Assembly (NCBI RefSeq): GCF_024721175.1
Contig: NZ_CP099399.1
Coordinates: forward strand, 2,728,001 to 2,792,000
From: Rhizobium sp. Pop5
Lineage (GTDB): Bacteria; Pseudomonadota; Alphaproteobacteria; Rhizobiales; Rhizobiaceae
Length of the DNA stretch: 64,000 nucleotides
Direction of reading: 5' to 3'
Each line of letters starts with the position of its first letter. Position 1 is the first letter of the stretch. The notes below the pieces were generated by a model. That model did no database searches. It was not told where the DNA came from and saw nothing but the letters and a program-made list of their open reading frames with translations. Of the stretch, positions 56,948-58,985 are shown in pieces. The position numbers and the translations under genes are program-made.

Positions 56948-58666
56948 TCAGGCCTTGCCGGCCTTCACCTCAAGCACCCGATTGGCCGCCGAAACAATCG
57001 CTTCGAGCGACGCCGCGACGATGTTGGTATTGATGCCGGCACCGAAGAGTTTGCCGCCGGGATAGGAGGTCTCGACATAGGAGATCGCCGCCGCGTTCGA
57101 GCCGTGCTGCAGCGAATGCTCGGAATAGTCCTCGACGGACATTTCGATGCCGAGATAATGCGACAGCGCGTTGATGAAGCCGTCGATCGGGCCGTTGCCG
57201 CGCCCTTCGATGCGCTTGATCTCGCCATTGTCTGATATCTCGGCCGCGACGATCCGCTGACCCTTGCGCTCGGTGTCCGGATAGGTGTGGTGGTCGACGA
57301 ACCTGAGGCGCGCATCGGGCTGCGTCACATAGCGCTCGATGAAGCGGTCATGGATACGCTTCGAGGGAAGCTCCTTGCCCTCTACGTCGGTGATGCGCTG
57401 GATGTCCTCGCGGAACTCGACCTGCAGGTTACGCGGCAGGTTGAGCCCATAATCCTGCTGCAGGATATAGGCGATGCCGCCCTTGCCGGACTGCGAGTTG
57501 ATGCGGATGATCGCCTCGTAGGAACGGCCGACGTCACGCGGATCGATCGGCAGATAAGGCACTTCCCAGACCGGATGATTGGCGACCTGCGCCGCCTTCA
57601 TGCCCTTGTTGATCGCATCCTGATGCGAGCCGGAGAAGGCCGTATAGACCAGCTCGCCGACATAGGGGTGACGCTCGGCAATCGCCATCTGGTTCGAATA
57701 TTCGAACACTTCCTTGATGCGCTCGATATTCGAGCAGTCGATCCCGGGATCGACCCCTTGCGTGAACATATTGAGCGCCATCGTCACCACATCGACATTG
57801 CCGGTGCGCTCGCCATTGCCGAAGAGCGTGCCTTCGACGCGGTCGGCACCGGCCAGCAAAGCCAGTTCGGCAGCGGCGATGCCGGTGCCGCGGTCGTTAT
57901 GCGGATGCAGCGAAACGATCAGGTTCTCGCGATTGTCGAGGTTGCGGCACATCCACTCGATCTGGTCGGCATAGACGTTCGGCGTCGCCATCTCGACGGT
58001 GGACGGCAGGTTGATGATGAGTTTGTTGTCGGGCGTCGGCTTCACCACCTCGATGACGGCGTTGCAGATCTCCAGCGCCACTTCCAGCTCGGTGCCGGTA
58101 AAGCTTTCGGGCGAATATTCGAAGCGATAGCCGCCGCCGGCCTTGGCCGCCATGTCGGTGATCATCTTGGCGGCATCGACGGCGATCTGCTTGATGCCCC
58201 GTACATCCTTGGCGAAAACGACGCGGCGCTGCAGCTCGCTGGTCGAATTATAGAAGTGCACGATCGGCCGGTTTGCGCCTTCCAGTGCTTCGAAAGTGCG
58301 GGTGATCAGTTCGGGGCGGCACTGCACCAACACCTGCAGCGAGACGTCGGCGGGTACGTTGCCCTCCTCCACGCACCAGCGGGCGAAATCGAAATCCGTC
58401 TGCGAAGCCGAGGGGAAGCCGATCTCGATTTCCTTGAAGCCCATCTCGAGCAGCAGATGGAACATGCGGGCCTTGCGGTCGTGGCCCATCGGATCGACGA
58501 GCGCCTGGTTGCCGTCGCGCAGATCCACCGAGCACCAGACAGGCGCCTTGGTGATGGTCTTCGTCGGCCAGGTGCGGTCGGGAATGTTCACCTGCGGATA
58601 GGGTCGGTATTTCACCGCGGCATCGGGCATGCCTTTGGCGGAGGCTCGGCTGTTGGTGTTGTCCAT
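56948..58666 (-). CDS. leuA: 2-isopropylmalate synthase
   Basis: First committed enzyme of leucine synthesis: condenses 2-ketoisovalerate and acetyl-CoA. 572 aa, the long form. The catalytic TIM barrel (about 40-330) has VWCSVDLRDGNQALVDPM (Asp metal ligand), EIEIGFPSASQTDFDFAR and LHPHNDRGTGIAAAELALLAGADRVEG (His and Asp ligands). The C-terminal LeuA regulatory domain binds leucine for feedback inhibition. ATG 58666 has GAGGAG upstream. A leader peptide and hairpin precede it. Expression is expected to respond to leucyl-tRNA. Confidence 0.96.
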   Translation of the reverse strand: MDNTNSRASAKGMPDAAVKYRPYPQVNIPDRTWPTKTITKAPVWCSVDLRDGNQALVDPMGHDRKARMFHLLLEMGFKEIEIGFPSASQTDFDFARWCVEEGNVPADVSLQVLVQCRPELITRTFEALEGANRPIVHFYNSTSELQRRVVFAKDVRGIKQIAVDAAKMITDMAAKAGGGYRFEYSPESFTGTELEVALEICNAVIEVVKPTPDNKLIINLPSTVEMATPNVYADQIEWMCRNLDNRENLIVSLHPHNDRGTGIAAAELALLAGADRVEGTLFGNGERTGNVDVVTMALNMFTQGVDPGIDCSNIERIKEVFEYSNQMAIAERHPYVGELVYTAFSGSHQDAINKGMKAAQVANHPVWEVPYLPIDPRDVGRSYEAIIRINSQSGKGGIAYILQQDYGLNLPRNLQVEFREDIQRITDVEGKELPSKRIHDRFIERYVTQPDARLRFVDHHTYPDTERKGQRIVAAEISDNGEIKRIEGRGNGPIDGFINALSHYLGIEMSVEDYSEHSLQHGSNAAAISYVETSYPGGKLFGAGINTNIVAASLEAIVSAANRVLEVKAGKA

Positions 58667-58781
58667 TGTCTTGTCTCCTCGTCCCGGCATTTGCCTCGCT
58701 CCTTAGCCGATCGCATCGGGCTTGGCGATAAACAAATGCGGACCTTCGTCGGTCGTTAGGTCAATTTTGAAAGTGAGTCGC

Positions 58782-58824
58782 GAGGAGCGATGCCGGGCGG
58801 GCTTTCGGCCGCCGGGCGCTCCTC
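58782..58824 (-). promoter_or_regulatory. Candidate attenuator hairpin of leuA
   Basis: Arms GAGGAGCG (58817-58824 in minus-strand reading) and CGCTCCTC (58782-58789), with an inner GC-rich stem CCCGGCGG / CCCGCCCGG. It begins directly at the stop codon of the leader peptide. A T run is not clear, so it may not be a classic terminator. See the leader peptide entry. Confidence 0.65.
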
Positions 58825-58948
58825 AACGGACCCGGCAACCGCGCGTAAGGCCGAGGAGAAGAAGCGAGGTCAGGGCGCGTGTGTTGTCACGCAGGGCGAT
58901 ACGGCCGCGTGCAATCGTGTCGGAAATCTTGGCGCCTGAGGTCTTCAT
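58823..58948 (-). CDS. Leucine leader peptide of leuA (LeuL)
   Basis: A 41-codon open frame starting MKTSGAKISDTIARG and containing TSLLLLGLTRG, a run of four leucine codons (CTT CTT CTC CTC) with a fifth two codons later, then a TGA at 58823. It lies 157 bases upstream of leuA on the same strand, and a long hairpin follows. This is the layout of amino-acid attenuation: ribosomes stalling at leucine codons when leucyl-tRNA is scarce should change folding of the following RNA. A -10 box ends 9 bases before the ATG, so the mRNA is nearly leaderless here. Confidence 0.8.
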   Translation of the reverse strand: MKTSGAKISDTIARGRIALRDNTRALTSLLLLGLTRGCRVR

Positions 58949-58956
58949 GGCCGCGC

Positions 58957-58985
58957 TTATAACCTCGGGCGGGAAAACTGGCAAG
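58957..58985 (-). promoter_or_regulatory. Promoter of the leuA leader
   Basis: In minus-strand reading, CTTGCC (58985-58980) and TTATAA (58962-58957) with a 17-base spacer. The leader peptide ATG begins at 58948, so transcription should start only a few bases before it. Confidence 0.6.

Follow-up and report, generated by a model that had tools for sequence, protein, structure and literature searches.

A putative leucine-responsive leader-peptide attenuator upstream of leuA in Rhizobium sp. Pop5 and its relatives, with an output other than a canonical intrinsic terminator

Attenuation by leader peptides is standard textbook matter, and in the familiar cases the leader region closes with a terminator that has a U tract. 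The tnaC and mgtL/corL leaders are Rho-dependent, and their signal is arrest by the nascent peptide or Mg2+. Among the alphaproteobacteria, an ilvB/ilvIH leader is named in passages of PMC1273637 and PMC4117421 (ilv attenuation in Caulobacter). Passages of a study of the S. meliloti small proteome (PMC10117765) include a leaderless trpL and a small ORF before leuC, and the word leuA is absent from them; 171 leaderless starts in S. meliloti are given in a passage of PMC3616915. Among the matches listed, no description of a leuA leader in the alphaproteobacteria was found in titles, abstract openings and passages (including those of PMC2573895 and PMC4833913). Such a leader is apparently undescribed in this class, with the limit that an earlier mention, in Vitreschak 2004 or Lopatovskaya 2010, is possible.

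The stretch analysed here (the window) comprises 64,000 nucleotides of Rhizobium sp. Pop5 (NZ_CP099399.1, positions 2,728,001 to 2,792,000). All positions below are those of the window, and all features lie on its minus strand. The gene leuA, encoding a 2-isopropylmalate synthase of 572 aa, is present at 56948..58666 and was recognised by NF002991 (873.5 bits) and TIGR00970 (772.5 bits), both above the cut-off. Two in-frame leuA ATG codons are present in 58664-58690, each with a Shine-Dalgarno-like sequence. The predicted start at 58666, behind the Shine-Dalgarno sequence GAGGAG (58675..58680), is most likely the correct one rather than the longest-ORF ATG at 58690, because in the relative L002 a distance of 23 nt separates the two ATGs, which puts the upstream one out of frame. 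The longest-ORF annotation would thus put the leuA start 24 nt too early.

The original prediction for the region upstream of leuA described a promoter with a 17-base spacer, a leader of 41 codons and a long GC-rich hairpin. The promoter was present, comprising a -35 element TTGCCA (58979..58984) and a -10 element TATAAG (58956..58961) that are 17 nt apart (58984-58956). The best -35 element starts with TTG in 100 of the 107 related loci described below. The leader ORF, MKTSGAKISDTIARGRIALRDNTRALTSLLLLGLTRGCRVR (58823..58948; 41 codons and TGA), extends from the ATG at 58946-58948 to the TGA at 58823-58825, and the peptide ends in LLLLGLTRGCRVR. It carries the expected leucine run CTT CTT CTC CTC (58853..58864), complementary to the GAGGAG of leuA, and one further leucine codon, CTT at 58847-58849. 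This final codon stands in the sequence GGC CTT A (58846..58852), by eye the counterpart of a CGA CTT A found in other orders. The hairpin was located at 58782-58824, starting within the leader stop codon and lacking a T run. One distance required correction: the leader start had been placed 9 bases past the -10 element, and the measured distance is 7 nt. The very short 5' end was retained as a feature of promoter geometry, the spacer being 17 in 89/107 loci and the distance from the -10 element to the ATG being 7 in 76/107 (both in 73). Since the -10 element ends only 7 nt before the leader ATG, the leader mRNA is probably leaderless, and the promoter geometry fits this. The promoter score was at least 8 in 68% of the loci versus 2% of the shuffled upstream stretches, with the best of several in-frame ATGs being used in the promoter scans and not in the shuffled control.

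The fold of the locus alone was unexceptional (z = -1.66), with 9 of 200 shuffles being equally or more stable. The case against chance is therefore a comparative one, made from conserved promoter geometry, codon choice and helices. The leader peptide matched no NCBIfam family, and no Rfam match at the gathering score was obtained in the window or in 18 related loci.

Of 110 leuA loci scanned, 107 had a leucine-rich leader upstream of the gene, so that the short frame with leucine codons, whose conservation the original prediction had proposed to check, was kept in relatives. The 110 loci consisted of the best 80 of 592 confirmed loci and 30 loci of further relatives. The 80-locus set included, by title, Rhizobium, Agrobacterium, Ensifer, Mesorhizobium, Brucella, Hoeflea and others. 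The loci are not independent, as 4 of the 30 further relatives were identical in the leader region to members of the 80-locus set; 102 of the 107 were distinct over the leader and hairpin. No leader was found in L108 (2 nt of upstream sequence available), L109 and L110. The search pattern was a small ORF with at least four Leu near its end and a set of allowed C-terminal residues. The presence of Leu was thus partly built in; the choice of codon was not. The last 16 codons of the 107 leaders contained CTT 382 times, CTC 189, CTG 46, CTA 14 and TTG 4. CTT and CTC together represented 571 of these 635 Leu codons, compared to 24% of 2860 in the leuA genes, where CTG made up 64%, CTC 21%, TTG 11% and CTT 3%. 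The commonest leader C-termini were TRGCRVL (35 loci), TRGCRVR (21), IGDRRVR (11) and SGDRRAR (8).

The leader sequences also bear on whether the region encodes a small protein acting in trans, with the helices described below serving its mRNA only. The N-terminal half of the leader was alike within Rhizobium, and a trans role is described for the S. meliloti leader peptide peTrpL in a passage of PMC7298713. However, the N-terminal half differed by eye in other genera, the leader length ranged from 25 to 54 codons, and the conserved parts were the leucine-rich end, the leucine codons and the helices. A protein acting in trans is, in our judgement, very improbable.

Two helices were identified at the leader end by comparative pairing. 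Helix A pairs GGTTGCCGGG, in the last leader codons, with CCCGGCGGCC, past the stop codon, with TCC:GGA inside. Its 5' arm (GGTTGCCGGG and TCC) is located at 58828..58840 and its 3' arm (GGA, a bulge GCG and CCCGGCGGCC) at 58807..58822. Helix B pairs AGGAGCG with CGCTCCT; its 5' arm GAGGAGCG (58817..58824) starts in the leader stop codon, and its 3' arm CGCTCCTC is located at 58782..58789. The two helices share 58817-58822 and are hence mutually exclusive.

Helix statistics were computed on 86 distinct sequences. The ten main pairs of helix A were standard pairs in 860/860 cells. Over its 13 pairs, 38 double-change cells were counted versus 12.8 in shuffles, with 0/500 shuffles reaching 38; these changes fell in 5 pairs versus 2.8 in shuffles, a value reached by 15/500. 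Sliding the partner reduced the pairing from 98.6% to 25-59%. For helix B, the five outer pairs were paired in 98.1% of cells, and 11 double-change cells were counted versus 1.4 in shuffles, falling in 3 pairs versus 1.2 (41/500 shuffles reached 3). Its innermost pair was broken in 30/86 sequences. Furthermore, a partner slid by +3 matched helix B in covariation score (0.116 vs 0.115 for B) and surpassed it in pair types (9 vs 7), although it paired fewer cells (68.6% vs 93.4%). Helix B is less secure than helix A because its innermost pair fails and a slid partner rivals it on two measures. The covarying stems and the mutually exclusive alternative stem that the original prediction had pointed to were thus both recovered in relatives, strongly for helix A and less so for helix B. 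Segments containing A only (48 nt) folded at a mean of -26.4 kcal/mol and segments containing B only (73 nt) at -27.3 kcal/mol. When the core was folded freely, A won in 41 of 107 loci and B in 66.

With moderate confidence, and judging from this anatomy, we interpret the region as a leader-peptide attenuator that makes leuA respond to leucine and that acts through something other than a canonical intrinsic terminator. When leucyl-tRNA is scarce, a ribosome would stall on the leucine codons of the leader. The last of these codons lies 6 nt before helix A, which would be about the closest stall point that leaves A intact; in other orders the distance is mostly 4-6 nt, so that the spacing varies little. 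In frameshifting signals, a hairpin can stay intact at the ribosome entrance, a geometry that would apply here with the CTT in the A site. A stall at the last CTT or further upstream would allow helix A to form and to occupy the strand needed by helix B. When leucine is plentiful, the ribosome would decode the CTT, run into helix A and hold its 5' arm, and helix B would form. Helix A would thus represent the state in which leuA is on and helix B that in which it is off, which would yield induction by leucine shortage.

The claim that the hairpin lacks a clear T run was borne out at the locus and in relatives, both by counts of T runs and by a terminator scan. No terminator-like site was found by the scan in the 107 leu loci, whereas the same scan found one in 20/20 trp and 26/30 ilv upstream regions, for which longer windows were used than for leu. 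The trp control comprised those 20 of 30 fetched loci that scored above the family cut-off. A T run of at least 4 within 10 nt after helix B was present in 1 of 104 loci, a few of these arms being apparently mis-assigned; the three loci in which the helix B arm was not found (L038, L100, L106) were dropped. Within at most 150 nt past the end of the leader, T runs reached a maximum of 2-4 in 98/107 leu loci (5-6 in the other 9), compared to 6-7 in 18/20 trp leaders and in all 18 ilv leaders that were recognised among the 30. Judged from these counts, the output of the leuA leader is not canonical intrinsic termination. In the source genome, the trpE and ilvB leaders (L121 and L164; ends AVWWWAR and ALIVVGRRMGRVV) have hairpins followed by 6 and 7 T.

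A degenerate version of a classical attenuator would be an intrinsic terminator without U residues, in which hairpin B alone dislodges RNA polymerase. The strength of hairpin B (given above) and the classical order of leader, helix A and helix B would suit it, as would the terminator-like sites present in 6/56 other-order regions with CGACTT. Set against the near absence of T runs after helix B and the scan results for leu relative to trp and ilv, this alternative appears improbable.

Perhaps, and this is the least certain step of the favoured reading, leuA is turned off by Rho-dependent termination after helix B, possibly together with reduced leuA translation. Rho-dependent termination fits because the U tract is missing. 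The tract that follows helix B (58759..58781) is G-poor and A/T-rich without a T run, and is a conceivable Rho loading region. Composition was analysed in 40 representatives (2 of 42 were dropped). The G content directly after helix B was 14% over 20 nt, versus approximately 30% at distances of 30 nt and more, and 25% far upstream. C exceeded G over 40 nt after helix B in 34/40 representatives versus 55/160 upstream control windows, and in 15/40 of the windows just before leuA. The excess was due to loss of G, as the mean C per 40 nt was 11.3 versus 11.9 in the controls. With 29.5% C and 57% A+T, the tract is A/T-rich rather than C-rich, and its lack of C enrichment and its length of only about 30 nt count against Rho. 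Moreover, the pyrimidine-rich 3' arm of helix B would be exposed when helix A forms, and Rho should profit from this instead of being impeded.

Further sites were noted between helix B and leuA. A small hairpin, GACC-GACGAA-GGTC, is present at 58741-58754, and by eye some relatives have other paired arms near the same place (ACCC..GGGT, CCGG..CCGG). By eye, the leuA upstream regions of Rhizobium, Ensifer and others appear to share the stretch CATTTG..TCGCCAAG..GATCGGCTAAG (58702-58738), conceivably a second promoter or protein site.

Translational attenuation would need no terminator at all. The leucine run would pair with the leuA Shine-Dalgarno sequence approximately 173 nt further downstream; a ribosome halted at the run would free that sequence for translation of leuA, and in the presence of leucine the run would re-pair and shut leuA. 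Such a model resembles the LEU element of Actinobacteria, in which pairing of a Leu run with the leuA Shine-Dalgarno sequence is described in a passage of PMC1262725. In free folds of the 107 loci, the mean probability that the Shine-Dalgarno sequence pairs with leader sequence preceding helix A was 0.60, and it fell to 0.31 when the Leu codons were redrawn by leuA usage and to 0.18 with CTG throughout. Its predicted accessibility (77 loci) was 0.48 with a stalled ribosome, 0.41 with a ribosome at the stop codon and 0.26 with none, these being the only blocked stretches compared. Native combinations also exceeded the mean of cross-clade swaps in 30/41 clade representatives by leader and in 32/41 by Shine-Dalgarno region, with a mean pairing of 0.54 native versus 0.46 swapped. 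However, with T or C placed at random at the third codon position the pairing was still 0.56, so much of the effect is that of polypyrimidine against polypurine. The pairing probability was 0.4 or below in 23/107 loci, including, by title, 7 of the 9 Mesorhizobium and 3 of the 4 Hoeflea loci. With the ribosome stalled, the Shine-Dalgarno sequence paired in part with the 3' arm of helix B (0.26), and some of the script-set leuA starts in this analysis look wrong by eye (L078, L090, L097). The model also leaves helices A and B without a role, and most other-order leaders have no leucine run. This absence of the run, together with the failure of the pairing in the majority of the Mesorhizobium and Hoeflea loci, led us to downgrade the model, and we now regard it as doubtful but a serious rival.

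Under strict filters and wherever placed relative to leuA, a covariance model (R1) matched 142 of 151 sampled same-family genomes. With strict filters it matched 2 of 41 genomes in the order sample, both of Rhizobium and one of them the source genome, and 4 of 385 in the class sample, the source genome included. The model was apparently too family-specific, and leuA upstream regions were therefore read directly in other orders. Samples of 58 and 289 genomes and additional stretches provided 79 regions, of which 76 were used. L263 and L269 were left out for too little upstream sequence, and L200 was left out once it had been found to have no CGACTTA; L194, L172, L173 and L202-L213 stand outside all counts.

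The short leaders of other orders include MKIDRLSGLLLRLTSPVL, MTIIDRPNALLRLASPAL and MTIRTDTGLLGLRLIGPAS. CGACTTA was present on the sense strand in 51/76 regions (51/77 with L200 included) and absent from 25/76. At least two copies were present in 24 regions, and the total was 76 copies versus 1 on the antisense strand. Small ORFs that start with ATG or GTG, have no more than 70 codons and end before leuA read all 76 copies in the frame CGA-CTT, versus 6 and 13 copies for the other two frames. Direct sensing of tRNA by the RNA was set aside on the ground of this constant frame; another reading considered was a +1 frameshift at CTT-A. Near the ends of the small ORFs, 73/96 Arg-Leu pairs were CGA-CTT. 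In 31 of the other-order leuA genes, CGA made up 3.5% of Arg codons and CTT 4.5% of Leu codons.

For 55/76 motif copies versus 77/760 control windows, a helix with a minimum of 7 bp started 3-7 nt past the CTT, with 50 distinct 5' arms among the helices. The helix offset was 4-6 nt in 52/76 copies when any helix length was allowed. By the same fold criterion, only 59/107 loci of Rhizobium and its kin passed, which counts against the favoured reading, as does the absence of CGACTTA from 25/76 regions. RNAalifold on 25 second-leader hairpins, whose alignment was poor in the arms, returned no consensus. The first ORF had a promoter-like site with the -10 element ending 6-10 nt before the ATG in 49/55 cases; for later ORFs, the promoter score was near the control (6.0 vs 5.6), and 23/28 had no clear Shine-Dalgarno sequence. 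A stricter motif pattern had 7 matches in 115 whole genomes, and read backwards it had 6, so the number is no excess; what matters is their position, 198-324 nt before leuA in all 7 cases, in genomes that were among those from which the pattern was drawn. Compared by eye, the leader of Rhizobium is similar to the second ORF in tandem pairs (GLIGDRR and GLTRGCR vs RLIGGRR and RLIGGCRV), and the L194 leader (MFPLWLSSDLRLMRGCRV) combines both types.

As a separate observation, L202, L203, L204 and L205, which are leuA-like and below the TIGR00970 cut-off, have leaders ending in ICP, IVP, IRP and ICP, respectively. These leaders carry CTTAT..CCCCTGA, and the hairpin begins in CCCCTGA at the stop codon.

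More tentatively than for the Rhizobium locus itself, these regions suggest a class-wide leucine attenuator of the alphaproteobacteria without an intrinsic terminator, with CGA-CTT-A as the sensor and a hairpin that follows it at the leader end, mostly at a distance of 4-6 nt. The Rhizobium leader would then be a derived single-leader form of the second leader of a tandem pair. In such a system, the ribosome would stall more sharply at one CTT codon, owing to a slow CGA in its P site and to the hairpin acting as a roadblock, and many genomes would have two leaders in series before leuA, as the regions with repeated motifs indicate.

Across a large bacterial group, the leuA leader would keep the sensing half of an attenuator and lack the U-tract terminator, while trp and ilv in the source genome and its relatives keep theirs. 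This combination allows the output step to be tested directly. The CGA-CTT-A pair, with its marked preference, would be a natural case in which to ask how codon context and a hairpin at ribosome entry determine the sensitivity to one uncharged tRNA.

Compared with described systems, the LEU element of Actinobacteria, which has a conserved pseudoknot, is also located before leuA and has a Leu run able to pair with the leuA Shine-Dalgarno sequence, a pairing that is predicted here for many but not all loci. It belongs to another phylum and, as far as the passages of PMC1262725 go, helices A and B are arranged otherwise. The tnaC and mgtL/corL leaders resemble the leuA leader in being leader ORFs without an intrinsic terminator. 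The signal in the leuA leader would instead be hungry Leu codons, its use of Rho is a proposal and its tract is not C-enriched. Going by the passages cited at the outset, the ilvB/ilvIH leader is of the same class, a leader for branched-chain amino acids, and differs in its gene and its Ile/Val codons; the ilv leaders found here have T runs. The nearest leaderless example is S. meliloti trpL, for which the leaderless start is stated in passages of PMC7298713 and PMC10117765, whereas here it is predicted. The trp and ilv leaders of the source genome and its relatives have T runs, unlike the leuA leader. Classical attenuators of the leuL, trpL and ilvL type have a leader ORF with control codons and mutually exclusive helices, as here, and the leuA leader is set apart from them by having no intrinsic terminator and by a helix A that lies astride the leader stop codon.
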